A stretch of 64,000 nucleotides of DNA, taken from Colwellia sp. (GTDB lineage Bacteria > Pseudomonadota > Gammaproteobacteria > Enterobacterales > Alteromonadaceae). The stretch spans positions 62,001-126,000 of the forward strand of contig JABSOZ010000008.1 in assembly GCA_013215295.1 (NCBI GenBank). Reading direction: 5' to 3'. The notes below the pieces were generated by a model that did not search any database, had not been told where the DNA came from, and saw only the letters and a list, made by a program, of their open reading frames with translations. Both the position numbers and the translations under genes were made by a program. Numbering within the stretch: position 1 is the first letter of the stretch; the number at the start of each line of letters is the position of its first letter. Of the stretch, positions 32,224-49,980 are shown in pieces.

Positions 32224-34359
32224 ATGAGTGATTTTTGGGTTGGCAACTTTAGGGTTGATGTATCGCGTGCACAAATTATTGTCAAAGACGATATTGTTTC
32301 GCTTGAACCTAGAGTGTTAAAAGTATTATTAACACTTGCCAAAACTCCTGGGGAAGTTGTTACTCATGAAACCTTGCTTGAAAGTGTTTGGCCAAATGTT
32401 GTCGTTGCTCCTAATGCAGTACAACGATGTATCGGACAACTTAGAAAAGCATTAGGAGATGACGCTAAACAGCAAAAGATGATAGCGACTCATCCAAAAG
32501 TTGGTTACAGCCTAATCGCGAAAGTTCAATGGCCAGAAATTGCCCCATCTGTTGAAACACCACCAGTAAATAGTCGTCAAATCACACGGAATCAAAAGCA
32601 GTGGTCACTGGTTATTATATCTATGTGTGTGTGTTTATTAACACTGATGTTATATTTTTTACCCGTTGAAAAATCGTCGTTACCCATCAGTCGTATTACT
32701 CCAATAACCAGCACCGATGAAAAGGAATATTATCCTAACTTTTCACCCGATGGTCGATATTTGGTATTCAATCGTTATGTCGGTGTTTGTGAGAATGAGC
32801 TTTGGGCAAAAGATTTACTTGAAAATCGTGAGTTTAGACTGACGAAAAATTCCGGCTTTTATGGCCCCGCAGATTGGTCGCCAGATGGTAATCAACTTGC
32901 TTTCTCAAGTGTGAGTGGTTGTGACAGCGATCCTCAAACAAAGCAATGCAGTAACATTAGCGCGTTATCGTTTTTACTGGCTAAAACCAAGCCTCAAGTT
33001 CCTCGAGAAATACTTGCTTGTGACCAGCATAATTATGGGGCTATTAATTGGTTAGCTAACAATCATATTGCTTATATTGATTCTTATGATAGAAAAGGAA
33101 TCGTAAAATCATTAGACATTAATAGTGGTGAAATAACATTGCTTTATACTGATCAGAAATATATTGCTCAAGCATTAATCTATTCTGATCGGAATAAAAA
33201 ACTGGCCATCACTGTTCATGATCAAATGCAAAATACATCGTTAATAATATTTAACACCGAAACGAATACTAAAGAGCTCGTGGAATTAAATGTGCCAGTC
33301 AAATATAGTGATTTTCTATGGTGGGATCCAACTTGGCACCCTTTAAAAGACACACTACTGGCTTCTGCTGAAAATAGTTTATTTGAAATCGACATGGCTG
33401 GAGAGTTTGTTGAGTATCCTGTAACGAGTGTTAAAGACATTTATAATGCGGTCTATCATCCAGACGGTAATAAAATTGTTGCCGTTATGGGCGGAGTCGA
33501 CTATGACATTGAAGAATACAACCTCCAGTTAAATGATGCAGTAGATGGGGACACTTCGCCATTGTTAGCTGGAATAGCGCCTGAAATATCTATTAAAAAA
33601 CATCAAACCATTCATCACTCAACAGTCATGGATTACCAAGCTAAATATCAACCACATACTGCTAATATAAGTTTTGTTTCTGACAGAAGTGGCGAGCAAC
33701 AAATATGGTTTACCCAAAATGAGCAACTCAAACAATTGAGTCATTTTGAGACTAATACCCATATCAATTCCTACGTTTGGTCATTAGACGGGCAGTCGTT
33801 GGCATTAACGATAAAAGGGAAATTGCAACTGTTAACGTTAGACGGACAAGCACAATTAATAACCACGTCGTTTAAAATATTAGATGTGTATCAATGGGTT
33901 GATAATCAAGAAGTATTATTATCTATTATCGAACAAGCCTCCGATGATAATCAAAATCAGCAAAGAAAAACTGTATTATTTAATATCAATACCGGTGAGC
34001 ATGAGGTGATTTTCCAAGGCTTTAGTCATTGGGCACAACTTGATAATGACAAATCCTTGTATTATACCGACTGGGATAAAGCACTTCATTTATATAAAGA
34101 TAATAAGTCGACTATTTTTAAACCGACAGCAGATACCGTATTTTCATCAGGTTTTATGTTTAAAGATGATAAGTTAGTCTTACTCGGGCAAGGTAAAGTA
34201 TGGCGTTATCAATTTGAACAAAAAGTACTTACCAGCATCGAAATATTATCGAAAGCTAAACGTATTGCAAGTTTAAGTGATATAGATTATGCCAATAAGC
34301 GGGTACTTTTTTCTGTATTCAAGAATGCCAGAAAAGACTTGGTTATGTTCCAACGATGA
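32224..34359 (+). CDS. Membrane-anchored winged-helix regulator with TolB-like propeller
   Basis: A 711-residue ToxR/CadC-like protein. Residues 1-100 are a Trans_reg_C winged helix (VSLEPRVLKVLLTLAKTPGEVV and NAVQRCIGQLRKALGDD). A single membrane helix follows at about 128-148 (WSLVIISMCVCLLTLMLYFL). The periplasmic part, about 155-711, carries PD40/TolB-like repeats (YYPNFSPDGRYLVF, GPADWSPDGNQLAFSS). The design suggests that a periplasmic signal is sensed by the propeller and relayed to DNA. It is divergent from the esterase pair and precedes the protease/phosphatase genes, so either side may be the target. Paralogue of the gene at 41477-43603. Confidence 0.88.
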   Translation: MSDFWVGNFRVDVSRAQIIVKDDIVSLEPRVLKVLLTLAKTPGEVVTHETLLESVWPNVVVAPNAVQRCIGQLRKALGDDAKQQKMIATHPKVGYSLIAKVQWPEIAPSVETPPVNSRQITRNQKQWSLVIISMCVCLLTLMLYFLPVEKSSLPISRITPITSTDEKEYYPNFSPDGRYLVFNRYVGVCENELWAKDLLENREFRLTKNSGFYGPADWSPDGNQLAFSSVSGCDSDPQTKQCSNISALSFLLAKTKPQVPREILACDQHNYGAINWLANNHIAYIDSYDRKGIVKSLDINSGEITLLYTDQKYIAQALIYSDRNKKLAITVHDQMQNTSLIIFNTETNTKELVELNVPVKYSDFLWWDPTWHPLKDTLLASAENSLFEIDMAGEFVEYPVTSVKDIYNAVYHPDGNKIVAVMGGVDYDIEEYNLQLNDAVDGDTSPLLAGIAPEISIKKHQTIHHSTVMDYQAKYQPHTANISFVSDRSGEQQIWFTQNEQLKQLSHFETNTHINSYVWSLDGQSLALTIKGKLQLLTLDGQAQLITTSFKILDVYQWVDNQEVLLSIIEQASDDNQNQQRKTVLFNINTGEHEVIFQGFSHWAQLDNDKSLYYTDWDKALHLYKDNKSTIFKPTADTVFSSGFMFKDDKLVLLGQGKVWRYQFEQKVLTSIEILSKAKRIASLSDIDYANKRVLFSVFKNARKDLVMFQR

Positions 34360-34365
34360 AAAAAA

Positions 34366-34389
34366 AAGCCACTATAAAAGTAGTGGCTT
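34366..34389 (+). terminator. Terminator after the winged-helix regulator
   Basis: AAGCCACTA pairs with TAGTGGCTT (9 bp, 6-nt loop) just after the stop codon. The T-run is weak (attgagctt), so efficiency is uncertain. Confidence 0.6.
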
Positions 34390-34683
34390 ATTGAGCTTAT
34401 CAAGCAGAGTGAAACAGTTAAGCTCTCATGCGATACTCTGTTCGCAAATATCAATGACAACGTCAATTCTCTCTACCAAAAATTCAACCATCACCTTAGC
34501 TTAATTGGTTTCAATAAAACTCAAACTAAGCTAAAACCTTATATGAGTTAAATAAATAACCTACGGCGAAAACATATGGTTTGCTGACTATCATGCTGAC
34601 AATTAATTTCAATTCTACTTAGAAATAACTGAACCTGCTCATGTTAACTCTAAGTAGAACATCTCTTGAAACTCATTTATTTA

Positions 34684-34728
34684 TCTGTTCTTAATTATGC
34701 CATATACAGGCTAATTTTCACTTGTTAG
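34684..34728 (+). promoter_or_regulatory. Shared upstream element, copy 1
   Basis: TCTGTTCTT followed 15 bp from its start by GCCATATACAG, then a partly conserved stretch ending in TTGTTAG. The same two blocks with identical spacing lie at 37148-37192, upstream of the second protease gene. It is either a shared operator or residue of the gene duplication. Confidence 0.45.
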
Positions 34729-34879
34729 CTTGGTTGATAACTATGTTTATCACTTAAAGGTTAACTCGATTACCCAATTGAATTTTTGGCCAATTATAGC
34801 AAACAGAGTCATTTATTGATCATCATCAAATGATCTAAACACTCATAATACCTCACGCTTAAAAGAAGAAAATCACTGT

Positions 34880-36904
34880 ATGAATACTTTTGAAAATATA
34901 AAAATCAAGATGTTAATCGTTGTCGCAATTATAACAATGAGTTTCGCAGCGACAGCTTTAGAAAGGATCCCTGTGCATTTCATTGTTGCTGCCGAGCACC
35001 AAAACGGTACAGGAATGCAGGCCTCATTGGCTGATTTAGATAACGGCATTGCGCAATTGAACAACTTTTTCAATGAATTAGGCATCGAGTTTTACCGCGA
35101 CGATGTCGTATACATCACTAATAATGATGTTGAAGGTATCAACAATCCTCGCTGGAGTACCGACAATGAAGAACAAATAAGCCCTTGGTTTTCATATGGA
35201 AAAATGAATATTGTGGTTGCTGATCTTGAAGACGTCGCGGGCCATGCTTATTGGCACTATGAACAACGCGATGTGATTGAAATTGAAGCTGAACGATTGG
35301 ATAGTTCTACCATTGCTCATGAAGTTGGTCACAATTTTAGCTTGAAGCATACTTATCAAAATTCAACAGATGAATCTATTGCAGTTATGGAGAGTGATAA
35401 TGGCTACAAATATGGGGATACGGTAATAGATACGCCTGTTGATCCAGGCGAAAGAGACTATTTTGATGATTGCCACTGGTTCGAAGGAAGTGCCTTTGAT
35501 ATCGAGGGCGTAGAGTATGCCCCCGATGGTTACAATGTCATGGGGAAAGGTCAACACACGTGCCGTAACAGGTTTAGCGACGAGCAAAAACAGCGCATGG
35601 TTCGTATTATCCAAACTTACAAATTTCATTTATTTGATAAATACGGTTCAAATCAAAACCCCAGTTGTGCAAATTCAGCTAAAGTCACCCATTTCCCTAG
35701 TGACGAAAGTTTTGATTACGAAAAAATAGTTAACAACCTGCCTTGGGTGCAAGACGTATTTAATGACAATGATTTCAATTGGAAAATTGATGTTAAGACC
35801 AGTTCTTCAAGCACAGGTGCAAGTTCATCTCAGGCAGGTCATAATTTTATTCACATTGACGCAGGTCATGAATTCTTAAGTGCCGGCGATCAAGTCAATT
35901 TATTAAGTCCCTGTTATGACTTATCAAGCCAAAATATGGCAGAGATTGACTTTTATTATCACATGTATGGCGTCGACATAGGTAAACTCAGTTTAGAGGT
36001 TTCCACTGATAATGGTGCTTCTTGGTTTGAGCTATGGAGCAAAGAGCATCAACAGCATAACGCTGGTGAAACGTGGAGCAGAGCTACCGTTAGTTTGGCT
36101 AATTATCTAAATAAATCTATTCAACTAAAACTCAAAGGTCAAGTTATTGGTGGCAGTAAAGGAGATATCTCACTCGATACTATCACTTTGCGAACAAGTC
36201 CTGTCGGCGAAAAACCAGTAATTACCGGACAACAAGCCTTATCAACGAATGAAGACCAAAGTTTAACATTAACAGTTGCAGACCTTACTTATGCCAACGA
36301 GGGTAACGTTGATGATTTAATCATAGCTCCGGGTGAAAACTATCAAATGAACGAAAAAACAATCACCCCTGACAGAAATTTTAATGGCAGGTTATTTGTT
36401 GCTGTGAGTGCAATAAATAACGGTACACAAAGCGCGCCATATATCACCACTATTGATGTTATTCCGGTAAATGATGAGCCGACAGCAGTGGATGATAATA
36501 TTGTCGTTTTACAAGACTCAATGGATAATATAATCGATGTACTGGGTAATGATACCGATGTCGACCAAGATATATTAACGTTGAGTCAGGTGAATTATGA
36601 TGGTAGCGGAAACTTTACGCTAAGTGATAATAAGATTATGTTCACGCCACCTAACGGCATTATTGGTACCGAAAATTTAACTTATATCGTTAATGATAGT
36701 AAAGGCGGTACCGCAACAGGTAAGCTTATTATCACCATAACTGCGGCAACATTTGAGAATAGTGGTAATTCTGCTAACCCTAAACAATCTTCAGGTGGCA
36801 GCCTTTATTCGCTAGTTATATTTTTACTTCTACTTTTAATAAACAGCCTAAAACCATTCTTTACTAGCGCTATAACTGATACCCGTTTACAGAAATCAGC
36901 ATGA
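34880..36904 (+). CDS. Secreted zinc metalloprotease, MAM and cadherin-like domains, GlyGly-CTERM
   Basis: A 674-residue exported protein. Order: signal peptide (cleavage near SFAATA); zinc protease domain (about 30-255) with the metzincin-like motif HEVGHNFSLKH (H147, E148, H151, H157) and a possible Met-turn YNVMGKGQ; a MAM-like domain (about 285-430; DFNWKIDVKT, LSPCYDLSS, GDISLDTITL); two cadherin-like repeats (about 440-640; VNDEPTAVDDN); and SSGGSLYSLVIFLLLLLI plus basic residues at the end, which fits a GlyGly-CTERM sorting tail for type II secretion and rhombosortase. In the zinc motif Ser154 stands where metzincins usually have Gly. Paralogue of 37326-39227. Confidence 0.87.
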   Translation: MNTFENIKIKMLIVVAIITMSFAATALERIPVHFIVAAEHQNGTGMQASLADLDNGIAQLNNFFNELGIEFYRDDVVYITNNDVEGINNPRWSTDNEEQISPWFSYGKMNIVVADLEDVAGHAYWHYEQRDVIEIEAERLDSSTIAHEVGHNFSLKHTYQNSTDESIAVMESDNGYKYGDTVIDTPVDPGERDYFDDCHWFEGSAFDIEGVEYAPDGYNVMGKGQHTCRNRFSDEQKQRMVRIIQTYKFHLFDKYGSNQNPSCANSAKVTHFPSDESFDYEKIVNNLPWVQDVFNDNDFNWKIDVKTSSSSTGASSSQAGHNFIHIDAGHEFLSAGDQVNLLSPCYDLSSQNMAEIDFYYHMYGVDIGKLSLEVSTDNGASWFELWSKEHQQHNAGETWSRATVSLANYLNKSIQLKLKGQVIGGSKGDISLDTITLRTSPVGEKPVITGQQALSTNEDQSLTLTVADLTYANEGNVDDLIIAPGENYQMNEKTITPDRNFNGRLFVAVSAINNGTQSAPYITTIDVIPVNDEPTAVDDNIVVLQDSMDNIIDVLGNDTDVDQDILTLSQVNYDGSGNFTLSDNKIMFTPPNGIIGTENLTYIVNDSKGGTATGKLIITITAATFENSGNSANPKQSSGGSLYSLVIFLLLLLINSLKPFFTSAITDTRLQKSA

Positions 36905-37021: not shown

Positions 37022-37147
37022 CAGCCATTCATCTGCAACATGATAAATTTCTGCTAGATCCGATTTGTCTTGTCGCTCAAAGGACAAACAACAGCTATTT
37101 CAAAATCGATTGATATTTAAGCATATCTTTTAAATGTCATTTAAAGG

Positions 37148-37192
37148 TCTGTTCTTTCTTAAGCCATATACAGCTTGATTTCCTGCTGTTAG
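37148..37192 (+). promoter_or_regulatory. Shared upstream element, copy 2
   Basis: TCTGTTCTT and GCCATATACAG with the same 15-bp offset as at 34684-34728, then a diverged stretch ending CTGTTAG. It lies about 130-180 bp before the second protease start, a position like that of copy 1 relative to its gene. Confidence 0.45.
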
Positions 37193-37271
37193 TTTTATAA
37201 TCAACTAGTCAAATATTACTAATAATTTGATGGAGTAGAGATTAGTGAAATCTACTAGTTACACACTATAA

Positions 37272-37325: not shown

Positions 37326-39227
37326 ATGAATAATTTCAAAAAAAATAAGATAACGGCCTTCATTGGCGTTGCCGCACTAGCAACAAGTTTAGCCGCCACA
37401 GCCTTGGACAGGGTTCCGGTAAAATTTATTGTTGCTGCCAGTAGTAATAGCGGTACAGAGGCGCACGCCTCAACTTCTGAATTGGATGCCGGTATCGATC
37501 AATTAAACCTTTACTACAATGAACTCGGGTTAGAGTTTTATCGCGATGACATCGAATATATCACCAATAGTGATGTTGACGACATTGAGGAAGACTGGGA
37601 CAAGGATAATGAAGAGGATGTCGCCCCTTGGTTTGAATACGGCTCGATGAATATTATTGTTACTGCACAAATGGATGGCGTGGCTGGTCATGCTTATTGG
37701 CATTATGAACAACGTGATGTTATTGAGATTGAAGCTGAGCGATTAGGTACTTCAACCATTGCCCATGAAGTCGGTCACAATTTTAGCTTAAAGCATACTT
37801 ATCAAAGTGCGGACGATTATACTATTGCTGAGGCAGAAGGTGCTACCGGCTATAATTTTGGTGACAGTGTTCTAGACACCCCCGTTGATCCAGGTGAAAG
37901 AGACTATTATGAAAATTGTGTCTGGATAGAGGGCAGTGCCGAAGATACCGAGGGTGAAGAGTACAATCCTGATGGTTTCAATATTATGGGTAAAGGTGAA
38001 TACGAATGCCGTGACAATTTTACCCCGGGTCAAAAGAAACGTATGGATCGCGTTATTCAAACCTATAAATTTCATTTGTTTGATAAATATGGCTCAGGTC
38101 AAAATCCAAGCTGTGCAAATTCCACTAAAGTTACCAGCTACCCTAGCACAGAACAGTTTAACCAAGAAGAGACGGTTAGCAGCACGCCTTGGGTACAAGA
38201 CGTCTTTAATGATGATTTCAACTGGAGAATAGATCCGAAAACGAGCGATTCAGACACAGGCGCACCTTCAGCCTATGAGGGAGAAACATTTGCGCATATT
38301 GATGCTGATGGTGAATTTGTCAGCGAGGACTCTACCGCGGCAATGTTAAGCCCTTGTTATGATATTACCGATAAAGCGGAAGCGGAAGTAAGATTCAGAT
38401 ATTTTATGTATGGTGCTGATATTGCTGAAGTGACGTTAGAAGTAACAGACGACAACGGCTCAAACTGGGATGAAGTATGGAGTGAGTCTGGCGAACAACA
38501 CAGCGAAAGCAGCGGTTGGAGTACCGCAACTATTTCTCTTGATCAATATGTCGGTGCAACTATTCAGTTGAGATTTACCGGGGAAGTTGGCGATGGTGAC
38601 AAAGGTGATATCTCTATCGATGATATCCAGTTTGATGCCAGTAATACCGGCTCTGGCGGCGATAGTCAAACCACTCACACGCAAACTTTTGAGATTCAAC
38701 ATTATAAAGATGATGCCGAAGAAGATCTTGATAGTGGCGAAGTGGATCGTTCAAGCTCTGACTTAGAGTTAACCGAAGACGGCTCTGATCAACAGTTAAT
38801 TGGTATACGTTTTAGAGAGGTTAGCCTACCTCAAGGTGCGAAAATTGAAAGTGCTAAAATTCAATTTACCGCCAAAAAAGATGACTCTGGCAGTGTTGGT
38901 CTAATGTTCCATGGCCATGATGAAGGTGATTCTGACCGTTTTAGCTCTAGTGACGACGACGATATATCAGATCGTGATACGACGAGTAAATCGGTACTGT
39001 GGACACCAAAAGATTGGGATGAAGGTGATGCTGGCAGTGCTCAACTAACGCCTCAATTAAAGAAAATTGTCCAACAGTTAGTGAATAGATCTGATTGGAA
39101 TGACGATAGTGCGATTACTTTTATTATTACCAACGATAGTGGCAGTGGTGAACGAGTGGCCTATTCTTATGATGAAGAAGACAGCGGTGACATAGCACCT
39201 AAGTTAATCATAACGTGGAGTGAATAA
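37326..39227 (+). CDS. Secreted zinc metalloprotease with MAM domain and C-terminal beta module
   Basis: A 633-residue exported protein, paralogous to the gene before it across the signal peptide, protease domain and MAM-like domain. The signal ends near SLAATA. The zinc motif HEVGHNFSLKH is at exactly the same residues (H147, E148, H151, H157), again with Ser in the Gly place; the Met-turn is FNIMGKGE. The MAM-like domain spans about 285-440 (GDISIDDIQF). In place of cadherin repeats it ends in a 185-residue acidic beta-rich module (FEIQHYKDDAEED to APKLIITWSE), nearly the same as in the next gene. There is no GlyGly-CTERM tail. GAAGGAA lies upstream of the ATG. Confidence 0.87.
   Translation: MNNFKKNKITAFIGVAALATSLAATALDRVPVKFIVAASSNSGTEAHASTSELDAGIDQLNLYYNELGLEFYRDDIEYITNSDVDDIEEDWDKDNEEDVAPWFEYGSMNIIVTAQMDGVAGHAYWHYEQRDVIEIEAERLGTSTIAHEVGHNFSLKHTYQSADDYTIAEAEGATGYNFGDSVLDTPVDPGERDYYENCVWIEGSAEDTEGEEYNPDGFNIMGKGEYECRDNFTPGQKKRMDRVIQTYKFHLFDKYGSGQNPSCANSTKVTSYPSTEQFNQEETVSSTPWVQDVFNDDFNWRIDPKTSDSDTGAPSAYEGETFAHIDADGEFVSEDSTAAMLSPCYDITDKAEAEVRFRYFMYGADIAEVTLEVTDDNGSNWDEVWSESGEQHSESSGWSTATISLDQYVGATIQLRFTGEVGDGDKGDISIDDIQFDASNTGSGGDSQTTHTQTFEIQHYKDDAEEDLDSGEVDRSSSDLELTEDGSDQQLIGIRFREVSLPQGAKIESAKIQFTAKKDDSGSVGLMFHGHDEGDSDRFSSSDDDDISDRDTTSKSVLWTPKDWDEGDAGSAQLTPQLKKIVQQLVNRSDWNDDSAITFIITNDSGSGERVAYSYDEEDSGDIAPKLIITWSE
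38671..39227 (+). repeat. Duplicated C-terminal module, copy 1
   Basis: About 557 bp encoding the C-terminal module of the second protease. It matches 40744-41299 at DNA level, with long near-identical stretches (for example around tataaagatgatgccgaaga and atagatctgattggaat). It probably moved by recombination between neighbouring genes. Confidence 0.8.
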
Positions 39228-39323: not shown

Positions 39324-39448
39324 CGTTATTATCTAAATTTAAATTAAAAAATTCAACTTACTCTATTGGTTTGCTACCTGTCGGCAAGGTGTTTGACATC
39401 GTCGTAATGCCAATAGAATATATGATCAATAAAACAGTGATAGAACAT

Positions 39449-41299
39449 ATGAATCAACCAATTAAGAAAAAGTCAGTGCTGCATAAACTCTCTACCATCA
39501 GCATAGCCATGGCACTCACCACCAGCTTAACTGCTGTTGCGTCATACGATTATGGGCCCTATTTACAAAGTGGTAGCGATACCCGTATAGCCGTTTCTTG
39601 GCGAACAAAAAACGCTACTAACTCTAAAGTGTGTTATGGCACGAGCCAAAGCCTAGGTAACTGTATTGACGAAGACAATGATACGGATGATCATACAGTT
39701 ACCCTCGACGGATTAACCCCTAATACCAAATATTATTATTCAATTAACGGTGATGATGGTGAGATCACCAACTCGAAGTTTAACTTCGTTACTTCGCCTA
39801 CTGTAGGTACATCAACTCCGGTGCGAGTATGGGTCATTGGTGATTCAGGTATAGAGGGTTCCGCCGGTGAAAACGTGCGAGATGCATACCTTGCCGACAG
39901 CTCAGCTCACACCGACATAATGTTAATGCTTGGCGATAACGCCTATCAAAAAGGTAAAGAAAACGATTACCAAGACGCAATGTTCGATCAATACGCTGAC
40001 GTACTTAGCCAAACAGTGGTTTGGCCCGTATTAGGTAATCACGACGAAGATTTAGCTCTGTATAAAGATATGTTTCATTTACCTAAAAATGCAGAAGCAG
40101 GTGGTGTAGCGTCAAATAGCGAACAGTATTACTCATTTAATTACGCCAATATCCACTTCATTGCTTTAGACTCAGAACATGCTTCACGCTTGACCAGTGG
40201 TGATATGTTCGAATGGCTTAAAGATGATCTGGAGCAAGTAACGGCTGATTGGACGATTGCTTACTGGCATCACTCGGTTTATAGCAAAGGTAAACATGAC
40301 TCGGATGACTCTAGTGGTGGACAAGCAGAAGATATGCGCGAGCGCGCACTGCCCATTCTTGAAGGGGCGGGTGTCGATCTTGTGCTTAATGGCCATGATC
40401 ATACTTATCAACGTAGCTATCTTATTGATGGTCATTACGATGATGCCAATACTTTTGATCAAAGCGATCACTTAATTGATGGTGGCAGTGGCCAATCAGG
40501 TTATCACAAGCCAACTTTGGGTCCTGCCCCCCATGAAGGCACCGTATATATTGTTACGGGTACGGCGAGTAAATTCAGTGACGGCCCTTATGATTTTGAC
40601 CATCCTGTGCATTACAAAAATATTGACGAAGTATTGGGCTCAGTGGTAATTGAAATAGATGGCTCGACTATGGAGGTGAAATTCATTGATGATGATGGCG
40701 ATACCCAAGATTATTTCAGCATTATTAAAGGGAGTGCTGGTGGTGATAAAACAACGCAATTCTTTGAAATTAAACACTATAAAGATGATGCCGAAGAAAA
40801 TATTAACAATGGCTATATGGTTTTCTCAAGCTCTGACTTAGAAATGAGCAAAGACAGCTCTACTCAACAGTTAGTGGGTGTACGTTTTAGAGAGGTTAAC
40901 CTACCTAAAGACGCAACTATTGAGAGTGCAACCATTCAATTTACTGCCGATGAAGCGGACTCTGGGAATATTGACCTCATAATCCATGGTCATGATAAAG
41001 GTGACTCTGACTCCTTTAGTTCCAGTATTGACGGCGATATATCAGATCGTAGCAAGACGTCGGCATCAGTGCTTTGGTCACCAGAAGATTGGGACTTAGC
41101 AGGGCGCAGTGGTATTGCTGAACAAACACCGGATTTAAAAGGTATTGTTCAAGAATTAGTCAATAGATCTGATTGGAATAATGACAGTGCGATAACGTTT
41201 ATTATTAGTCGCAAGGGCGGTGATAGTACCAGAGTGGCAGAGTCTTTTAATGGCGAACCTTCTAAAGCACCTAAGTTAACCATCACCTGGAGTGATTAG
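39449..41299 (+). CDS. Secreted purple-acid-phosphatase-like metallophosphoesterase
   Basis: About 616 residues: signal peptide (cleavage near TSLTAVA), an N-terminal fibronectin-like PAP domain (about 35-120; YGPYLQSG, LDGLTPNTKYYYS), then a calcineurin-like phosphoesterase (about 125-400). Metal ligands are all visible: GDSG, GDNAY, GNHDED, WHHSVY and GHDHTYQR. The C-terminal 185 residues are the acidic beta module shared with the second protease. Purple acid phosphatases release phosphate from esters, including phosphoproteins. The frame opens at TTG 39371; I prefer ATG 39449 because it gives a normal signal peptide, but the ribosome site is weak. Confidence 0.87.
   Translation: MNQPIKKKSVLHKLSTISIAMALTTSLTAVASYDYGPYLQSGSDTRIAVSWRTKNATNSKVCYGTSQSLGNCIDEDNDTDDHTVTLDGLTPNTKYYYSINGDDGEITNSKFNFVTSPTVGTSTPVRVWVIGDSGIEGSAGENVRDAYLADSSAHTDIMLMLGDNAYQKGKENDYQDAMFDQYADVLSQTVVWPVLGNHDEDLALYKDMFHLPKNAEAGGVASNSEQYYSFNYANIHFIALDSEHASRLTSGDMFEWLKDDLEQVTADWTIAYWHHSVYSKGKHDSDDSSGGQAEDMRERALPILEGAGVDLVLNGHDHTYQRSYLIDGHYDDANTFDQSDHLIDGGSGQSGYHKPTLGPAPHEGTVYIVTGTASKFSDGPYDFDHPVHYKNIDEVLGSVVIEIDGSTMEVKFIDDDGDTQDYFSIIKGSAGGDKTTQFFEIKHYKDDAEENINNGYMVFSSSDLEMSKDSSTQQLVGVRFREVNLPKDATIESATIQFTADEADSGNIDLIIHGHDKGDSDSFSSSIDGDISDRSKTSASVLWSPEDWDLAGRSGIAEQTPDLKGIVQELVNRSDWNNDSAITFIISRKGGDSTRVAESFNGEPSKAPKLTITWSD
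40744..41299 (+). repeat. Duplicated C-terminal module, copy 2
   Basis: About 556 bp, the second copy of the module at 38671-39227. Both copies end at the stop codon of their gene and both begin after an interdomain linker, consistent with a transferable domain. Confidence 0.8.
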
Positions 41300-41476: not shown

Positions 41477-43603
41477 TCAATTGAATAAGGTGTGTCGTAA
41501 TTTCTTTATATCTGATTGGCCATATTCTGTAACAGCAAATATTAATTTATTTTCATCTGGCACCAAATTTAACGGGCTGCTATACGAAAAAGTATTCACT
41601 GGAAATTTTGCTAATGGGGTAATTTTCTTTGATGAATAATCAAAAAAACTAATTTGTTCACCACGCTTAATATCTTCTCTAAAATAAATTCCTCGCTTGG
41701 TATTAGTCCAAAAATACCGTTCTTTAAGAAATTCACGCGCAATAATCATCGTCGAGGCTTTTTGTAAAGTTTCATCTGAAATATCTTTTCGCCATAATCC
41801 CCCTTTCTTTCGCGCATAAAGTAATTGATTGTTTTCTGTCATAACGCCAAACCTTCCGCCGTCAAAAGTGATTCTTTTCACAGGCTCTGAATATAAGCTT
41901 ATTAGAAATAGATCCATTATTCCGTCAGTATCAATGGCTGAAATAATGGCATCATCGTTAAAACTCCACGTAGGATGTTCGTGATCATCATAAGGAGTCT
42001 TTAACATCGAAACCTGTTTAGTCGCTACATTTATAGTATACAACTTCAAACCAGGGGTATTTTTAATAGGTGCGAGAAAGGCCAGTTTTTTACCGTCATG
42101 AGACCAACGAGGAAAGCTAATATTTACGCCCATATTAGTCAATTGTATTCGTTCTTTACCATCTTTATTGGCAAGCCAAATTTCATTAACACCCGTTTCA
42201 TTTGATATAAAAGCAATTTGTTGCGAGCTGTGTGAATAGTTAGGCTGCCTTTGGCTAAAGCCAGACAATAATATTGGTTCGGGACTGGAGGGAATTGATT
42301 GATCTAGACTCAAAGATTTTATCTGGTACTTGCCTAACCTTTGCTGGTAAAACAGCGAGTTATCAACTTTATTAAATGCGGGATAACTAAACCCTTCAAC
42401 ATTCAAGGATTGTTTTACTTTGGTATTGGTATTAAGCCAATAACCAGTGCGGATCCCAGACTTTCGTTCGCCAAAAACTATATGCAAATTATCTGAATGC
42501 CAACTTAAGCCACGCACATCTTCAACGTCTGTTGTAATACGCTGAGATTTTCCGGAGGCAATATCAACAATAAAAATATCTTCACTATTACTATGAAACC
42601 TCCGCGTTAATGCCAAACGTTTACCATCAGGCGAAAAAGCCATATCTCTGTCTTTGTAATTGCAGTCTTTAGCACATGAATAGCGCACAGGTTTGGCATT
42701 TTTCTGAGTTAAATCGAGAAAATAAATTCCTTTTTCATCAGCATCATTGTCTTCGCCAATAAAAGCCAGCAGTTTGTCGTCGGGGGATATATCCAGATAA
42801 TAATATTTTCCGTCTGTCGGGCATTTAGCGATTTTTCTTTCAAACTGATTAAAAATATCTAGCTGAATATAGTCACAAAATTTCTTTTTCTTATCTCGAC
42901 GTGCATAAAACAAATATTTGCCATCGTTACTCCAGACAGAAAGTCGTTCAATCGCCTTATCAAAGGTCAATTGTTTAGCGGGTAAATCAGGTTGTTGAAG
43001 GTCTTTCAAATATAAATTAACGACTTCATCTTGATTAGTCATTTGGTAAACAATAAATCTGCCATTAGGAGATAAAGAAACAAACAATTCTTCACCCGGA
43101 TCTGATGTCACTGTTTCTATAGTGGCCAGCTCGACATTCGGTTTATTATTAGCATAAAACCAAAAAAAGGTCATCAATAAAAAACATAAGCTTAAGGTCA
43201 TTAGAATAAGGTTTCTGTTTTTTATAATACTGGATTCATTAGCGTTATTGCCAGCTATTGAGTTTTCTTCTAGTTCGATAGTTATGGGGGCGACGAATAG
43301 CCGATAACCTGCTTTTCTAATCGTCTCGATAATTTCCTGAGTTTCATCTTCTTTTTTGAAACTGTTTCTTAAGTTCCAAATTACATTTGTTAACGATTTT
43401 TCGCCAACATAACTATTACCATCCCAAATTTTTTCGATCAATTCTTCTCGGGGAATAATGCGGGGATGATTTTCAACGAGGTAATTTAAGACTTCTATCC
43501 ATTTAGGTTGTAAAGACTGCTTTTCACAGTTGTCAAACTGAATAGCAAATTCATGAGGATATACAATGCAACTGCCAAGCTTATACGTTTGTTCAATCTT
43601 CAT
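41477..43603 (-). CDS. Membrane-anchored winged-helix regulator with TolB-like propeller
   Basis: A 708-residue paralogue of the regulator at 32224-34359. The winged helix is at about 1-108 (LQPKWIEVLNYLVENHPRII and SLTNVIWNLRNSFKKED), the membrane helix at about 134-152 (NLILMTLSLCFLLMTFFWFY), and the rest is PD40/TolB-like propeller repeats (LFVSLSPNGRFIVYQ, RLSVWSNDGKYLFYARR, FPRWSHDGKKLAFL). It is divergent from the TonB-dependent receptor at 44133 with about 530 bp between, so that receptor is its likely target. The two regulators bracket the protease/phosphatase block. Confidence 0.88.
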   Translation of the reverse strand: MKIEQTYKLGSCIVYPHEFAIQFDNCEKQSLQPKWIEVLNYLVENHPRIIPREELIEKIWDGNSYVGEKSLTNVIWNLRNSFKKEDETQEIIETIRKAGYRLFVAPITIELEENSIAGNNANESSIIKNRNLILMTLSLCFLLMTFFWFYANNKPNVELATIETVTSDPGEELFVSLSPNGRFIVYQMTNQDEVVNLYLKDLQQPDLPAKQLTFDKAIERLSVWSNDGKYLFYARRDKKKKFCDYIQLDIFNQFERKIAKCPTDGKYYYLDISPDDKLLAFIGEDNDADEKGIYFLDLTQKNAKPVRYSCAKDCNYKDRDMAFSPDGKRLALTRRFHSNSEDIFIVDIASGKSQRITTDVEDVRGLSWHSDNLHIVFGERKSGIRTGYWLNTNTKVKQSLNVEGFSYPAFNKVDNSLFYQQRLGKYQIKSLSLDQSIPSSPEPILLSGFSQRQPNYSHSSQQIAFISNETGVNEIWLANKDGKERIQLTNMGVNISFPRWSHDGKKLAFLAPIKNTPGLKLYTINVATKQVSMLKTPYDDHEHPTWSFNDDAIISAIDTDGIMDLFLISLYSEPVKRITFDGGRFGVMTENNQLLYARKKGGLWRKDISDETLQKASTMIIAREFLKERYFWTNTKRGIYFREDIKRGEQISFFDYSSKKITPLAKFPVNTFSYSSPLNLVPDENKLIFAVTEYGQSDIKKLRHTLFN

Positions 43604-44132: not shown

Positions 44133-47100
44133 ATGAATAAAAATATAATAACACTCGCTGTTCAGATCGCTATATGGGGTAGCCTGTCGGCTATAACAGG
44201 ACAGGCTTATGCTGTTCAAGACCAAGATATTGAAAGACAAACTATCAATCAAACTGAAATAGCAGAGCAGAAACGGCAAGAAGAAAAAATTGAAAAAATC
44301 ACCGTTACGGGATCTCGTCTTCGTCGTGATAGTTTCAGTGTTTCCACCCCGTTAGTCACCATAGATCGCGAAGATATTCAAAGTGCTGGTATCGGTTCAT
44401 TATCCGAGATACTACTTGAAGAAATGCCAATACTGGCTGAAGAGGACAGTAACACTAATACCCAAAGCCAAGTTCATGGTAGTGGCTTATCAACCATTGA
44501 TTTACGTAATTTAGGCTCTAGCCGAACTTTAACGCTTATTGATGGCAGACGTACCGTTTCTAATAGTTATAGCTCCAATAAAGTGAGCTTATCAACCATA
44601 CCATCTGGTATGGTGCAAAAAGTTGAAGTAATTACCGGTGGTGCTTCAGCCGCTTATGGCTCTGACGCTATCGCCGGGGTCGTGAATATCATTACCCAAC
44701 AATATAAAGAAGGTTTAGAAATATCGGCCAAAGGCAGTGAAAGCGCTGAAGGTGGGGCTAAGGAGTTTTCAGTATCACTTGATTATGGTACTGACTTTGC
44801 CGATGGTAAAGGTTACATGTACTTTAGCTCAAATTATGAAAAAGAGTATGGCTTAGGTTTTGCGGATCGTAAGCGTGCTCAGCTACAAATAGACGACGGA
44901 TACGACGAAGATTTAATGTGTAATACCATACGCACAGCAGACGGTGAAGTCTGTATGAGAGATACTACGCAGGATCAATGGCGTAGTCTCAGCGATGGTC
45001 TATTTGGCGGTGTATTCCTTGAAAAAAGTGACAATGATACTCAGTTTTGGTACGACGAAAATGGTTTAAATAATGACTGGGCCGACAACGAAGAAGTATA
45101 TGGCATCAACTCAAATCAATTTCGCCAACTAAAAACTCCCGAAGATTCAACTTCTGTTGCCTTAAAAGTCGATTATGAACTCACCGATGATCTAGAAGCG
45201 TATTTTCAAATACAATATAGTAACAATAATTCGATAAATTATAAGTCACCTGAAGATGCGAGTGAGGCATCTAACCTTCGAACCACTTATGACGCTGCAA
45301 CCGATACCTATGGCTTTATATCACTTGACTATATTCCCATTGATAACCCATACGTCCCCCAAGAGCTTATAGATGCAGACCCTTATAAAGACCGTATATA
45401 CTGGGATCGCCGTTTCAACGAAGTAGGTCAGATAACCACAGATAATACCCGTGATACTGTTCGTCTCTGGGGAGGATTACAAGGTACTGCATTTGACGGC
45501 GACTGGGAATGGGATCTATCAGTTGGCTATGGCAAATTTACCCAAAGACAAACGCGGTATAACGAACTTTATGTGCAAAAATGGCTCGATGCTGTAGTTG
45601 ATGTTGAGCAATTGGACGACGGGACTATTCAATGTTCTAGTGAAGAAGCTCGCGCCAATGGTTGTGTGCCACTTAACATGTTTGGGGAAGGTTCAATTAC
45701 CGATGAAGCGGCCAATTATATTCGTGCTAACCCAACGGTAAACACCGATATCGAACAAGTTAACGTATTAGGTTATATGGCAGGCGACTTATTTGAACTG
45801 CCAGCCGGCACTGTCGCTTCAGTATTTGGTTTTGAATATCGCAAAGACAAACAATCGGTTAGCACAAATGTACCGGAAGGTGGCATTACTTTTAATTATG
45901 TACCCAGCTTTTCTGGTGCCGTTGACGTAGCCGAAGTTTTTGCTGAAGTGTCTTTGCCGTTACTAAAAGATGTCACCGCGGTTAAAAGCTTAAATCTTGA
46001 ACTGTCCGGACGCCTTGCTGATTATAGCTCAGAAAATGTAGATTTGATCAAAAGTTATAACGTCGGATTAATTTGGCAAATCGTAGACGGCTACGGTGTT
46101 CGTGCAAACTATTCCAGAGCACAACGTGCGCCAAGTATTACTGAGTTAGGCTCACCAGCACGTGGAGATTATGATGGTTATGACGACATATGTGAGGAAC
46201 TCACTGCAACCTCTGACGATGCAGGCCATGATAGTTGTCGTTTAGACCCAATGCTTGCCGCACTATTAGCCGAAGATCCAGACTTTGAATTTGAAGATGA
46301 CAACGCGGGTTATTCACCAGCGGAAGGTAATTCAGAATTGTTTGAAGAAACTGGCGAGACATACACTTTTGGCATAACAATGGCACCTGATTTTCTTGAT
46401 GGCTTGCAGTTGGCCATTGATTATTACGATATTAAAATATCAGACGTAATATCTGAATATGAAAACGAAGATATACTTGCAGCTTGTTATGACGGAACAA
46501 TCGATTATGGAGATAACAATACCTTTTGTAATGATATAACCCGTGATGGAGAGGGCCAAATCACTCAAGTAACTCAAAGGGCTTACAACCTTAATGAAAG
46601 GCGTACTAGAGGTTATGATATTGCTGCGGAGTATCGTTATGACATGGATGAGTATGGTAGTTTGAAATTTAAACTTTCTACGACCCATGTTATCGAATGG
46701 ACTGAAACTGCCGATATTAATGGAGAGTTAACAACAACTAATCATGTTGGCGATATAGACCTTGCCAGTATTTTCAGAGATAAAGCTTCAGCATCACTAA
46801 AATGGAAAAAGGATGATTGGAGTGTTAAATGGAGCACAAGTTATAAAAGTAGTACTGTTGACGACAAAAAACGAGGGCTCGATTGGCAAGAAGCTGTCGC
46901 AGATAATGACGAACGATGTGCTGCAGCACCCGACGGTAATGATTGTATAGCAAGCCCTGAAAATCTCGCTTTTTATGAGATCGGTTCTTACATCAAACAT
47001 AACTTGTCAGTGAAATACAGCATGGAACTCGCTGGGGACACTGAGATCGACTTCCGTGTAGGTATCAAAAATATCTTTGATAATAACGGCGCAATCAACG

Positions 47101-47180
47101 CAGGTAGCAGTCATTATTACAGCACCTACGGCGGTGGTGTGGGTCGTCGTTATACCGCAGGTATATCAGTTAAATTCTAG
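44133..47180 (+). CDS. TonB-dependent outer membrane receptor
   Basis: A 1015-residue receptor. Signal peptide cleaved near GQAYA; a Gln/Glu-rich linker; then a plug domain (about 55-190) with a TonB-box-like ITVTGSR, SRTLTLIDGRRTV and GGASAAYGSDAIAGVVN; then the 22-strand beta barrel ending in YTAGISVKF, with the final Phe for BAM recognition. This class imports large substrates such as peptides or oligosaccharides rather than siderophores alone. Divergent from a winged-helix regulator and followed by a phosphatase and L-serine dehydratase, so a peptide or phosphopeptide substrate is inferred. Confidence 0.93.
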   Translation: MNKNIITLAVQIAIWGSLSAITGQAYAVQDQDIERQTINQTEIAEQKRQEEKIEKITVTGSRLRRDSFSVSTPLVTIDREDIQSAGIGSLSEILLEEMPILAEEDSNTNTQSQVHGSGLSTIDLRNLGSSRTLTLIDGRRTVSNSYSSNKVSLSTIPSGMVQKVEVITGGASAAYGSDAIAGVVNIITQQYKEGLEISAKGSESAEGGAKEFSVSLDYGTDFADGKGYMYFSSNYEKEYGLGFADRKRAQLQIDDGYDEDLMCNTIRTADGEVCMRDTTQDQWRSLSDGLFGGVFLEKSDNDTQFWYDENGLNNDWADNEEVYGINSNQFRQLKTPEDSTSVALKVDYELTDDLEAYFQIQYSNNNSINYKSPEDASEASNLRTTYDAATDTYGFISLDYIPIDNPYVPQELIDADPYKDRIYWDRRFNEVGQITTDNTRDTVRLWGGLQGTAFDGDWEWDLSVGYGKFTQRQTRYNELYVQKWLDAVVDVEQLDDGTIQCSSEEARANGCVPLNMFGEGSITDEAANYIRANPTVNTDIEQVNVLGYMAGDLFELPAGTVASVFGFEYRKDKQSVSTNVPEGGITFNYVPSFSGAVDVAEVFAEVSLPLLKDVTAVKSLNLELSGRLADYSSENVDLIKSYNVGLIWQIVDGYGVRANYSRAQRAPSITELGSPARGDYDGYDDICEELTATSDDAGHDSCRLDPMLAALLAEDPDFEFEDDNAGYSPAEGNSELFEETGETYTFGITMAPDFLDGLQLAIDYYDIKISDVISEYENEDILAACYDGTIDYGDNNTFCNDITRDGEGQITQVTQRAYNLNERRTRGYDIAAEYRYDMDEYGSLKFKLSTTHVIEWTETADINGELTTTNHVGDIDLASIFRDKASASLKWKKDDWSVKWSTSYKSSTVDDKKRGLDWQEAVADNDERCAAAPDGNDCIASPENLAFYEIGSYIKHNLSVKYSMELAGDTEIDFRVGIKNIFDNNGAINAGSSHYYSTYGGGVGRRYTAGISVKF

Positions 47181-47209: not shown

Positions 47210-47279
47210 ATTCATAAAAAATCTAATAATAGTTGATAAAGACGTGAGTTTTATTCAACCCTCAAATGAACTCAATATT

Positions 47280-48449
47280 ATGACAATAAATAAAAAACTC
47301 CTTATATTACTATTGATTACTTCAATAGTAATAATACTCTCCGCCTTCAATGTATTTAATATTAATGTCACCAAAACTCAAATTTCATCAAAAAATAGTA
47401 TTCAAAACGAAGTGTCGGCTGCTTTTATAGAGAATGATGGCCCATATCTATTTGTTAATAAAAATGAATTAACGGCAACGGGTTACTGGGTATGTAAAGG
47501 TGAAGTGAAAAAAGATATTTTTCCACTGAAAAGCTTTCCGAAAACCCTAAATTACTGTGGTTTATCTGCTGAGATTGTTTCAGCCGATGTTAAAGAAAAT
47601 AACACAATTGAATACTCAGGCGATTTTAAAATTGCCGCAGTGAGTGATTTTCATGGTCAATATAGCTTAATGAAATCATTATTACAGAATAACAAAATAA
47701 TCGACCAACAAGGAAACTGGTCTTTTGCTGACGGCCATTTTGTTATCACGGGTGATGTTTTTGATCGGGGAGACAAAGTCACTGAGATATTATGGTTCTT
47801 GTATAAATTAGAACACCAAGCTTTACAAGCAGGAGGTCAGTTACATTTATTATTGGGTAATCACGAAGTGATGATACTTAATGGTGATTTACGTTATCTA
47901 AACCCGAAATACACAGAAGTGGCTAAAAGGTTAAATATGCCTTTTGAACAGTTATTCTCAAAAAACAGCATTCTAGGTAACTGGCTACGCAGTAAGCCCG
48001 TATTAGTTAAACTGAATAATAATTTATTTGCTCATGGTGGTTTTCATCCTAGCCTTGCAAAAGACAATCATAGCCTTGAAGCAGTAAACAGCACTTTTAA
48101 AGCTAACTTAATTAAAGCTGAATTAGATAGCCCCCGTAAAGGTTGGGGCAAATTCTTACATAAAAGTAATGGCCCTATTTGGTATCGAGGATATTTTAAA
48201 GCGGGGGACGAAGGTGCTAGCTCCGAAGAAATTGATTTATTGTTAAAACACTTTGACATTAACCATATAATCGTTGGTCATACCTCACAAAAACAAATTG
48301 AAACCCGTTATCAAGGTCGCGTAATTGCTATAGATTCAAGCATAAAAAAAGGCGAATATGGTGAGATACTCTTTATCGAAAGTGCCAAAAACAAAGACGA
48401 TGTGATGTGGAGAGGCTCTTTAGACGGTAAAAAATTGAGTTTGAATTAA
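47280..48449 (+). CDS. PPP-family-like metallophosphatase, membrane-anchored
   Basis: About 389 residues: an N-terminal signal anchor (ITSIVIILSAFNVF), about 100 residues of unassigned sequence, then a calcineurin-like phosphoesterase. Motifs are of the PPP type: SDFHGQYS, GDVFDRGDK, GNHEVM, HGGFHPSL and GHTSQK, as in the bacterial Shewanella-like protein phosphatases. Family members dephosphorylate phosphoproteins, including phosphotyrosine. The periplasmic side is likely for this one. The start is uncertain: ATG 47280 is used, but GTG 47244 is also open, and neither has a clear ribosome site. It lies between the TonB receptor and sdaA. Confidence 0.8.
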   Translation: MTINKKLLILLLITSIVIILSAFNVFNINVTKTQISSKNSIQNEVSAAFIENDGPYLFVNKNELTATGYWVCKGEVKKDIFPLKSFPKTLNYCGLSAEIVSADVKENNTIEYSGDFKIAAVSDFHGQYSLMKSLLQNNKIIDQQGNWSFADGHFVITGDVFDRGDKVTEILWFLYKLEHQALQAGGQLHLLLGNHEVMILNGDLRYLNPKYTEVAKRLNMPFEQLFSKNSILGNWLRSKPVLVKLNNNLFAHGGFHPSLAKDNHSLEAVNSTFKANLIKAELDSPRKGWGKFLHKSNGPIWYRGYFKAGDEGASSEEIDLLLKHFDINHIIVGHTSQKQIETRYQGRVIAIDSSIKKGEYGEILFIESAKNKDDVMWRGSLDGKKLSLN

Positions 48450-48618
48450 ACGTTATATCTACCTCAAAAAATAAACTCATCAAAAGATGAGCTTAAAGCA
48501 ATATTACCCTACAAAACTATCCAATCGCCATCCGTGTTAAATATTAAATAATACGGGGTCTTTAGTGCAGATACGTTTTACAAAAAAGGTTATTAAAAAC
48601 TAAGAGAGACTCATTAAA

Positions 48619-49980
48619 ATGGTACACAGTATTTTCGATTTATTTAAAATTGGCATCGGCCCTTCTAGCTCACATACTGTTGGACCTATGGTCGCAGGAA
48701 ATCGCTTTGTTGCAAGTTTAAAACAGCTAGACCAGATAACGCACACCACAAGAGTTCGTATCGATTTATACGGTTCTTTGGCGTTAACAGGCAGAGGTCA
48801 CGCCACTGATACGGCTTGCATCTTAGGTTTAATGGCACAAACACCTAGCGAGGTCGATCCTGACAATATCCAGCTTTATATTGACCGGGTAAAAAGCAAT
48901 AACGAACTCATCTTAGCAGGCGAACACTGCATCAACTTTGATATAAGTGATGACTTATGTTTCAACTTTACAGAATCATTAAAGCAACACCCCAATGGTA
49001 TGAAAATTTGTGCTTATGATAAACAAAATAATGTTCTGCTTAGTCGTCGTTATTTCTCTATCGGTGGTGGTTTTGTGGTGGCGGAGTCTGAATTTAATCA
49101 ACAGGCAAATGAACAAGTTAGTCTGCCTTACTTTTATAACTCTGCACGAGAATTACTTGCTATTTGTCAAAAGGAAAACAAGTCTATTGCTGAAGTTATG
49201 TTAGCCAACGAAAAACATTTGGGCGAAGATAAAATCAATAGCAGAATATTAAAGATATGGCGAGTGATGGATGCCTGTATTAAACGCGGCATAAAAACAC
49301 CTGGGGTGTTACCTGGCAGTTTAAAATTAAAACGCCGGGCTTATCAAATGCACCAAAAGTTAATCGATAATAATAGCACTGACAGTATCGATTCCTTGGA
49401 TTGGTTAAACCTATTCGCCATGGCCACTAATGAAGAAAATGCTGCGGGAGGGCGTGTAGTTACTGCACCAACTAATGGGGCGGCTGGAGTCATTCCTGCC
49501 GTTCTTGCATGGTATTTGAAGTTCCACAGTAAAGATGATGAAAAAGCAATTATCGAGTTTTTGGCCACTTCAGCGGCCATTGGCTTATTATATCATCGCA
49601 ATGCTTCTATTTCTGCCGCAGAAGTGGGTTGTCAGGGTGAAATTGGCGTCGCGTGTTCAATGGCAGCTGCAGGTTTAGCCGCTGTAATGGGAGGTACACC
49701 AATGCAAGTAGAAAATGCCGCCGAGATTGGTATGGAACATAACCTAGGTTTAACCTGCGATCCTATCGATGGCTTAGTGCAAGTACCCTGTATTGAACGT
49801 AACACTATGGGTGCCGTCAAGGCAATCAACGCGAGTAAACTAGCGCTGCAAAATGATGGCCGTCATCTTGTACATTTAGACGATGTTATCGCCACTATGC
49901 ATCAAACAGGTTTAGATATGATGAGTAAGTATAAGGAAACTTCATTAGGTGGTTTAGCCATTAATGTCGTGGCCTGTTAA
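48619..49980 (+). CDS. sdaA: L-serine dehydratase (L-serine ammonia-lyase), Fe-S type
   Basis: A 453-residue single-chain L-serine dehydratase, which converts L-serine to pyruvate and ammonia using an oxygen-sensitive 4Fe-4S cluster. The beta-type N-terminal domain begins with FDLFKIGIGPSSSHTVGPM; the catalytic alpha domain carries APTNGAAGVIPAVL and the cluster Cys in GCQGEIGVACSMAAAG and LTCDPIDGLVQVPC. Length is as for E. coli SdaA. It allows serine to be used for carbon and energy. Position downstream of the TonB receptor and phosphatase suggests use of imported serine. AAGAGAG lies upstream of the ATG. Confidence 0.93.
   Translation: MVHSIFDLFKIGIGPSSSHTVGPMVAGNRFVASLKQLDQITHTTRVRIDLYGSLALTGRGHATDTACILGLMAQTPSEVDPDNIQLYIDRVKSNNELILAGEHCINFDISDDLCFNFTESLKQHPNGMKICAYDKQNNVLLSRRYFSIGGGFVVAESEFNQQANEQVSLPYFYNSARELLAICQKENKSIAEVMLANEKHLGEDKINSRILKIWRVMDACIKRGIKTPGVLPGSLKLKRRAYQMHQKLIDNNSTDSIDSLDWLNLFAMATNEENAAGGRVVTAPTNGAAGVIPAVLAWYLKFHSKDDEKAIIEFLATSAAIGLLYHRNASISAAEVGCQGEIGVACSMAAAGLAAVMGGTPMQVENAAEIGMEHNLGLTCDPIDGLVQVPCIERNTMGAVKAINASKLALQNDGRHLVHLDDVIATMHQTGLDMMSKYKETSLGGLAINVVAC

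Follow-up and report, generated by a model that had tools for sequence, protein, structure and literature searches.

What would a bacterium do with two secreted proteases, two phosphatases of different families, a TonB-dependent receptor and an L-serine dehydratase encoded side by side? The question is raised by a block of genes at 32224-49980 of a 64,000-nt stretch of Colwellia sp. DNA (assembly GCA_013215295.1, contig JABSOZ010000008.1, positions 62,001-126,000, forward strand), the whole of which we refer to as the window. The eight genes named in a preliminary description of this DNA are all present as open reading frames at the coordinates listed below, and its domain assignments were confirmed with Pfam and NCBIfam and in some cases sharpened.

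32224..34359, + strand: reg1, a membrane regulator with a Trans_reg_C winged helix, one hydrophobic segment (by eye) and a C-terminal PD40 propeller (Pfam/NCBIfam)
34880..36904, + strand: prot1, a secreted metalloprotease, probably of M43/pappalysin type, with MAM and cadherin-like/Big_9 domains and a hydrophobic C-terminus (Pfam, profile search)
37326..39227, + strand: prot2, a secreted metalloprotease, probably of M43/pappalysin type, with MAM and a C-terminal domain in common with PAP (Pfam, profile search)
39371..41299, + strand: PAP, a secreted purple acid phosphatase with the C-terminal domain found in prot2 (Pfam, PDB matches)
41477..43603, - strand: reg2, a membrane propeller regulator divergent from the receptor, core gene (Pfam, neighbourhoods)
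44133..47180, + strand: TonB-dependent receptor of 1015 aa, core gene (Pfam, neighbourhoods)
47244..48449, + strand: Shelph (Shewanella-like PPP phosphatase) with an N-terminal hydrophobic signal or anchor (by eye), core gene (PDB match, neighbourhoods)
48619..49980, + strand: accessory L-serine dehydratase of SdaA type (NCBIfam, second copy besides G000:C5)

Because reg2 lies on the minus strand, the eight genes do not form one operon. Both regulators join Trans_reg_C to a PD40/DPPIV_N propeller (Pfam, NCBIfam), and the receptor consists of a TonB plug and barrel (Pfam/NCBIfam). The regulators resemble CadC/ToxR-like membrane regulators in their N-terminal winged helix, hydrophobic segment and presumed extracytoplasmic sensor, and differ from them in that the sensor is a TolB/DPPIV-type propeller. 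Sus-type loci likewise place secreted degradative enzymes and a regulator near a TonB importer of the outer membrane; unlike the Sus-type polysaccharide and peptide loci of Bacteroidota, however, the window has two phosphatase families and a serine dehydratase and is without SusD, no SusD-type match having been obtained among the eight block genes or the flanking proteins scanned, which sets the block apart from a Sus-type PUL defined by SusC/SusD.

The two secreted metalloproteases are 60% identical across 442 residues and singly give MAM and weak metzincin/M43 matches (Pfam/NCBIfam). A profile of seven sequences, used in place of a poor predicted structure for prot2 (mean pLDDT 47.7), matches pappalysin-1/2, ulilysin and mirolysin and narrows the earlier assignment to probable pappalysin-type M43 enzymes with MAM; Pfam M43 is found in all seven family members (E up to 0.01, best 1.1e-5). 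The usual zinc motif of M43 proteases is HEXXHXXGXXH, and in the seven sequences its three His and Met221 are invariant. The proteases are like the pappalysins (ulilysin, mirolysin, PAPP-A) in the zinc-motif His, the Met-turn region and the profile match, and unlike them in having Ser for the usual Gly and an attached MAM domain. Purple acid phosphatases have five metal motifs, GDXXY among them, all of which can be read by eye in the translation of PAP (GDSG, GDNAY, GNHD, HHS, GHDH) and identify it as a member; it shares with these enzymes the PAP N-domain and Metallophos (Pfam) and matches PDB purple acid phosphatases at E 6.5e-19. What distinguishes it is an extra C-terminal domain, 62% identical to that of the neighbouring protease prot2. 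This domain was considered as a hallmark of the locus and discarded, since many relatives carry similar stretches, frequently in two copies, within open frames of ~1360-1400 aa. One such frame resembles PilY1 by eye.

The gene first described as a PPP-type phosphatase is indeed one by its Metallophos match (Pfam), and belongs more narrowly to the Shelphs by relatedness: residues 62-382 align with Shewanella psychrophilic phosphatase I (PDB 1v73, 2z72, 2zbm) at E ~1e-84 (8e-85 to 5e-84), the next PDB match standing at 3e-4. The two enzymes have the PPP metal-site motifs in common, as these are defined in PMC535813; in the window they read SDFHG, GDVFDRG and GNHE, the S of SDFHG taking the place of the first G in the Shewanella enzyme too. 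At the C-terminal (I/L/V)D(S/T)G motif, S replaces G in both, with IDSS in the window and VDSS in the Shewanella enzyme. Signal peptides or lipoboxes can be seen by eye in several Shelph orthologues. The founding Shewanella Shelph is described as a strict tyrosine phosphatase (PMC5658161); the Shelph of the window differs from it in being tied to a TonB receptor and a regulator.

The conserved core of the locus consists of three genes: the propeller regulator (reg2), the TonB receptor and Shelph. Across 118 genomes, that of the window included, Shelph adjoins 17 of the 19 receptors of at least 48% identity, and a receptor adjoins 17 of the 18 Shelphs of at least 49% identity (17 of 19 if this line is lowered to 48%). 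Among 80 non-redundant Shelph loci, labelled by BLAST with genes of the window and of some of the loci themselves as references, so that unlike phosphoesterases and peptidases are missed, a receptor lies within four genes in 34 and a regulator in 37, in variable order. This count leaves out L061, L076, L139, L140 and L146 of 90 loci, in which a simple ORF caller found no Shelph; the short flank loci L077-L106 also lie outside it, having been assessed on their own. L139 and L140 are phosphatase loci, and L061 has receptor matches upstream. The core is absent from three of the five other genomes of the same genus. The co-travel of receptor, regulator and phosphatase in many relatives suggests a job for the bacterial enzyme family. 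One such job might be signalling, with Shelph acting in the periplasm on the receptor, the regulator or tyrosine-phosphorylated proteins of the cell surface and not on food; we hold this to be very unlikely, even though the tyrosine specificity of the founding enzyme (PMC5658161) speaks for it, as does the fact that Shelph is constantly paired with one receptor and one membrane regulator. A scan of ten proteins from the block and its flanks detected no kinase domain, which counts against such a role. ATP, moreover, is not expected in the periplasm.

Of the seven gene types whose joint conservation in relatives had been put forward as a check, reg2, receptor and Shelph are strongly conserved together, and the full set is not. 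Among the loci read, most of the set occurs in the window's order only in the nearest relative, L033, which has a protease, a phosphatase, a regulator, a receptor, Shelph and a serine dehydratase; no reg1 or prot1 was detected next to the L033 set, and reg1 was not seen adjoining the protease in L033/L184. The outer gene types (phosphoesterase, M43-MAM protease, serine dehydratase) are rare, yet recur with the core. Each occurs in four of the 80 Shelph loci, window and sister included, and most core units are without them; the four loci with a serine dehydratase all fall within the five that have a protease or phosphoesterase nearby, as judged with references taken partly from these loci. In L034 the order is protease, regulator, receptor, Shelph, serine dehydratase and AbgT. 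In G107/L107 it is metallophosphoesterase, regulator, receptor, Shelph, serine dehydratase and a five-subunit ABC importer of Dpp/Sap type, of whose scored subunits only one exceeds its curated cut-off. Purple acid phosphatases are marked by a tyrosine-ligand motif, and by eye the G107 phosphoesterase is without this tyrosine; it has a C-terminal DNRLRE/CBM96-type domain. L107/G107 is placed far away by the Shelph tree only, on a distant branch, with L107 marked as unusual in letter composition. The Bacteroidota offer a SusC/SusD version of the Shelph locus in Fulvivirga L053/L186, where sigma, FecR, SusC, SusD (the last two assigned by similarity to those of L055), two proteins with PAP-type C-terminal domains, a metallophosphoesterase, an M43-MAM protease and Shelph lie on one strand. 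SusC-SusD-Shelph also occurs in three of four loci of Carboxylicivirga. Six Shelph genomes were found among 395 of Bacteroidota, with a protease or SusC/SusD nearby in Fulvivirga only, and the protease relatives in G858 and G914 are without Shelph. Among 394 genomes of the order, the protease occurs in the genome of the window only.

The window's serine dehydratase, identified as sda_mono by TIGR00720 (684.8 bits against a curated cut-off of 345.1), is an extra copy besides G000:C5 and sits on a long branch. Separate recruitment in the window and L034 was considered and dropped, since a single clade of window, L033 and L034 survives the AU test (p 0.389), as does one that also takes in G107 (p 0.14). 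Because the G107 enzyme is the sole copy in its genome, its position could be due to chance, the likelihood of which we put, over all loci, at roughly 0.01 to 0.2 depending on how strictly the position is defined.

Might the three-gene core alone be the unit, and the proteases, PAP and serine dehydratase chance neighbours? The patchiness of the outer genes fits this account. So does the comparison of upstream regions, in which no convincing promoter element common to protease and receptor genes was found: seven 12-mers occur in all of these regions, against 0-4 in six crude shuffles, and because the seven fall in only three AT-rich stretches we take them as neither a convincing signal nor a disproof. 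Promoter- and terminator-like sites were about as frequent as expected by chance, and the protease genes of the window, L033 and L034 have an element of ~60 bases in common. We nevertheless hold the account of chance neighbours to be highly improbable: the same extra types recur in two or three distinct lineages, one of them in a different phylum, where they lie on one strand with SusC/SusD.

We give about an even chance to the reading that this is a TonB-dependent phosphopeptide-scavenging locus built on the receptor-Shelph core. The secreted M43 proteases would cut phosphoprotein outside the cell, and the secreted PAP, perhaps tethered to the same material as prot2 by the common C-terminal domain, would strip accessible phosphate. 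The phosphopeptides left over would be imported by the receptor and dephosphorylated by a periplasmic or membrane-held Shelph, becoming usable by peptide transporters and peptidases; released serine would be converted to pyruvate and ammonia by the extra serine dehydratase. A periplasmic product may be sensed by reg2, which would switch on the receptor-Shelph-dehydratase run. A joint pathway of cutting, dephosphorylation, import and serine deamination had been proposed before, and it gains support because the outer gene types recur beside the core in G107, L034 and Fulvivirga L053, which does not prove the substrate; the tyrosine specificity of the founding Shelph, the patchy outer genes and the want of a convincing common promoter element count against the scavenging reading.

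The same genes could serve general protein and peptide utilisation, the receptor taking ordinary peptides, the recovery of phosphate by Shelph and PAP being incidental and the dehydratase belonging to general amino-acid catabolism. S9, M61, M13, M4 or M1 peptidases lie within four genes of Shelph in 13 of the 80 loci, a figure biased upwards by same-locus references (by gene, 15 of 602 within four positions and 3 of 512 at positions 5-12, an enrichment that we do not treat as a test, the reference peptidases having been drawn from these neighbourhoods); the importer in G107 belongs to the Dpp/Sap type, and in L197 and L198 M43-type proteases adjoin SusC/SusD with no Shelph there. We think this rather unlikely: one would not expect unphosphorylated peptides to call for a phosphatase that adjoins the receptor in 17 of 18 genomes, and two phosphatases of different families occur together in the window, L033, L053 and L107. 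Phosphatases are a constant theme that would also suit organic-phosphate acquisition, in which a sugar phosphate, phospholipid head group, nucleotide or phosphoglycan is imported and its phosphate freed by Shelph in the periplasm; purple acid phosphatases are broad phosphomonoesterases, and the family of the DNRLRE/CBM96-type domain in G107 takes its name from carbohydrate binding. This is unlikely: it has no need for proteases, a peptide-type importer or a serine dehydratase, and both CadC-like propeller regulators score far below the PhoB cut-offs.

If phosphopeptides are scavenged, which ones? The serine dehydratase is the one pointer to the phosphoserine-rich peptides proposed earlier as the food, and the tyrosine specificity described for the Shewanella Shelph (PMC5658161) does not point to phosphoserine. 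A tentative proposal, to which we give less than an even chance, is that the bacterial Shelphs of this clade dephosphorylate phosphopeptides outside the cytoplasm as part of a TonB-dependent system dedicated to phosphoprotein utilisation, one that was assembled separately in Alteromonadales and in Bacteroidota and is fed by phosphoserine-rich proteins such as those of egg yolk or biominerals.

The bacterial Shelphs have been in the background of the literature surveyed, which treats mostly plant and parasite members of the family. Neither a TonB receptor-Shelph pair nor a phosphopeptide uptake locus was found among the matches listed from the open-access literature, in the portions of text that these offer. 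An article by Kutuzov and Andreeva (2012; 10.1007/s10142-011-0254-z) reportedly predicts Shelph functions, and the receptor link may already be there. If the scavenging reading is true, the bacterial Shelph family would gain a physiological role, and phosphorylated protein would be one more substrate with its own dedicated route of uptake across the outer membrane.

Open reading frames in the window place eight genes at 32224-49980, arranged as follows:

Within 32224-49980, strand +, in this order: membrane propeller regulator (reg1), secreted metalloprotease (prot1), secreted metalloprotease (prot2), purple acid phosphatase (PAP)
Within 32224-49980, between PAP and the TonB receptor, strand -: second membrane propeller regulator (reg2)
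Within 32224-49980, after reg2, strand +, in this order: TonB receptor, PPP phosphatase, L-serine dehydratase

The window corresponds to G000:C51:62001-126000 of the organism's own 5.77 Mb assembly. Upstream, the block's neighbours are two TPR esterases (29007-31955; putative esterase plus TPR repeats), which are weakly similar to each other, lie on the opposite strand and adjoin reg1; at 25480-27926 a Gluconate 2-dehydrogenase subunit 3-like protein is paired with a GMC oxidoreductase. Downstream, on the other strand, are DUF480, YicC, a solute-binding protein and glutamate synthase.

Residues 62-382 of the PPP phosphatase align with the Shewanella protein-tyrosine-phosphatase, or psychrophilic phosphatase I, at E about 1e-84, and the next PDB match after the Shewanella enzyme reaches only 3e-4. 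On the strength of this best match it is a Shewanella-like phosphatase (Shelph), a group defined in PMC535813, whose founding member is reported in PMC5658161 and PMC535813 to be strictly tyrosine-specific. The tandem paralogues prot1 and prot2 (60% over 442 residues) are pappalysin-like: a profile built from seven relatives matches pappalysins, ulilysin and mirolysin, and three histidines, the glutamate and one methionine of the Met-turn region are all invariant in the alignment of the seven. An upstream element of ~60-76 bases is repeated before prot1 (34656-34731) and prot2 (37120-37195) and, by eye, is kept before the protease in L033, the window's nearest relative, and in locus L034; comparison of upstream regions revealed no convincing promoter element common to the protease and receptor genes. 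PAP matches solved purple acid phosphatases in the PDB, and its C-terminal domain shares 62% identity with the end of prot2.

The core of the block, consisting of reg2, the receptor and Shelph, is very probably a unit. Among named genomes, Shelph relatives were located at 44 loci; when these were queried with the window proteins, the order reg2 (divergent), receptor, Shelph recurred in Colwellia, Thalassotalea, Thalassomonas, Litorilituus, Pseudoalteromonas, Alteromonas and Bowmanella, among which the outer flanks are of several types. Receptors of at least 48% identity occur in 19 of 118 genomes (own included), 17 of them with Shelph adjoining, and Shelphs of at least 49% in 18 of the 118 (own included), 17 with the receptor adjoining and G060 as the exception; both identity lines were set after the lists had been seen, and a Shelph line of 48% adds G085 and gives 17 of 19. 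The receptors that lack an adjacent Shelph belong to G020, which has no Shelph match, and G085, where the two genes lie on separate contigs. Both receptor and Shelph are absent from three of five other genomes of the genus.

In the order, 35 of the 394 genomes searched contain a Shelph-like match at E 1e-20 or better. From all sources, 90 loci were passed through one script, of which 85 held Shelph and 80 were non-redundant; these were mostly found via Shelph, and their counts are informative only for receptors and proteases that accompany it, those without it being covered by separate receptor and protease searches. Within four genes of Shelph lie a receptor (34/80) and a propeller regulator (37/80), and a receptor or SusC/SusD is directly adjacent in 36/80. 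Among the 40 loci with Shelph of at least 44% identity, the receptor is adjacent in 31 and SusD in two more; the remaining seven comprise contig ends (L048, L142), a receptor fragment (L051), loci that keep the regulator without an adjoining receptor (L043, L113) and loci with neither (L122, L131). Many more distant Shelphs adjoin unrelated genes, so the receptor-Shelph pairing is a property of certain clades. In L109 (9323-18141) and L110 the core is rearranged, with an S9-type peptidase inside it (Shelph, receptor, peptidase, regulator), and in L113 (7642-10753) Shelph is divergent from the regulator, with an M61 glycyl aminopeptidase next, in the receptor's expected place. A second, distant Shelph of the own genome (G000:C16:18444-19241; L126) adjoins an M1-type peptidase and an ABC ATPase.

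The outer genes are far less constant, and the seven gene types whose joint conservation the preliminary description proposed to check are not conserved as one set. The serine dehydratase (window, L033, L034, L107), a metallophosphoesterase (window, L033, L107, L053) and an M43-MAM protease (window, L033, L034, L053) each lie near Shelph in just 4/80 loci, which amount to two or three lineages rather than four because L033 is closely related to the window. In the genome of L033 (L184 10345-18534, G442), the place of reg1 and prot1, immediately ahead of the protease, is taken by a DUF3450-ExbB-ExbB-ExbD-TPR cluster together with a winged-helix/TPR regulator. In locus L034 the protease stands before the core (regulator, receptor, Shelph), and serine dehydratase and an AbgT transporter come after it. 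G107 belongs to a different family of the order, and its Shelph is remote from that of the window in the tree. On one strand this genome carries a PAP-type phosphoesterase, the receptor and Shelph, then serine dehydratase and an importer of five subunits (one substrate-binding protein, a pair of permeases and a pair of ATPases), its divergent regulator lying between phosphoesterase and receptor. By eye, neither the PAP tyrosine nor the last histidine motif is present in this phosphoesterase, which is therefore PAP-related rather than a canonical PAP. The nearest NCBIfam models for the four importer subunits scanned are dipeptide (Dpp) and Sap models; the ligand is likely, not proven, to be peptide, since a single ATPase among them exceeds the curated cut-off. 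In Fulvivirga (Bacteroidota; L053, L186), sigma factor, FecR, SusC, SusD, two proteins with PAP-type C-terminal domains, a TIG-phosphoesterase, M43-MAM protease and Shelph follow in the same direction, SusC/SusD being assigned through their resemblance to the L055 pair, which was checked against Pfam.

Proteases and PAPs also occur away from the core. At E 1e-8 the own genome alone has the protease region among the order's 394 genomes, and it is again the only one among the 118, where three others match just the MAM part. In the Fulvivirga family, 33 of 148 genomes give a hit at E 1e-10, in many cases confined to the MAM part; among eight regions read, G858 and G914 have near-full-length proteases but the 20 kb covered there holds no Shelph, and in G876 and G917 protease-type genes adjoin SusC/SusD without Shelph. 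Six of 395 genomes of that phylum have Shelph at E 1e-25, and of these only Fulvivirga has a protease or SusC/SusD near it. Relatives of the first 450 residues of PAP, at 41-42%, occur in two of 117 other genomes (G033, G052), with weaker matches in more; no Shelph lies near these two in the stretches read, and one (L139) adjoins a propeller-type regulator of weak similarity. Elsewhere in the own genome (G000:C15:14401-18812), three more PAP-like matches, weak at about 30% identity, lie in tandem.

Of the own genome's two serine dehydratases, one clusters in the tree with copies from the genus and the block's shares a long branch with that of L033, which identifies the block's gene as an extra copy; in G107 the copy beside the core is the sole one found.

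The pathway first proposed for the block, in which extracellular phosphorylated protein or peptide would be cut, dephosphorylated, imported, dephosphorylated again and its serine deaminated, is thus partly supported: it gained further fitting loci (G107, L053, L034), but failed as a single conserved seven-gene system. Counted against it are the rarity of the protease, Shelph-free proteases and PAPs, coreless genomes within the genus, the promoter null and the tyrosine specificity of the founding Shelph. That the core handles peptides is likely, judging from the proteases, the serine dehydratase and the importer of peptide type. Because a phosphatase is its constant partner, the best reading, held with roughly even confidence, is that these peptides would be phosphorylated; that phosphoserine would be the main food is a weaker and more tentative suggestion.
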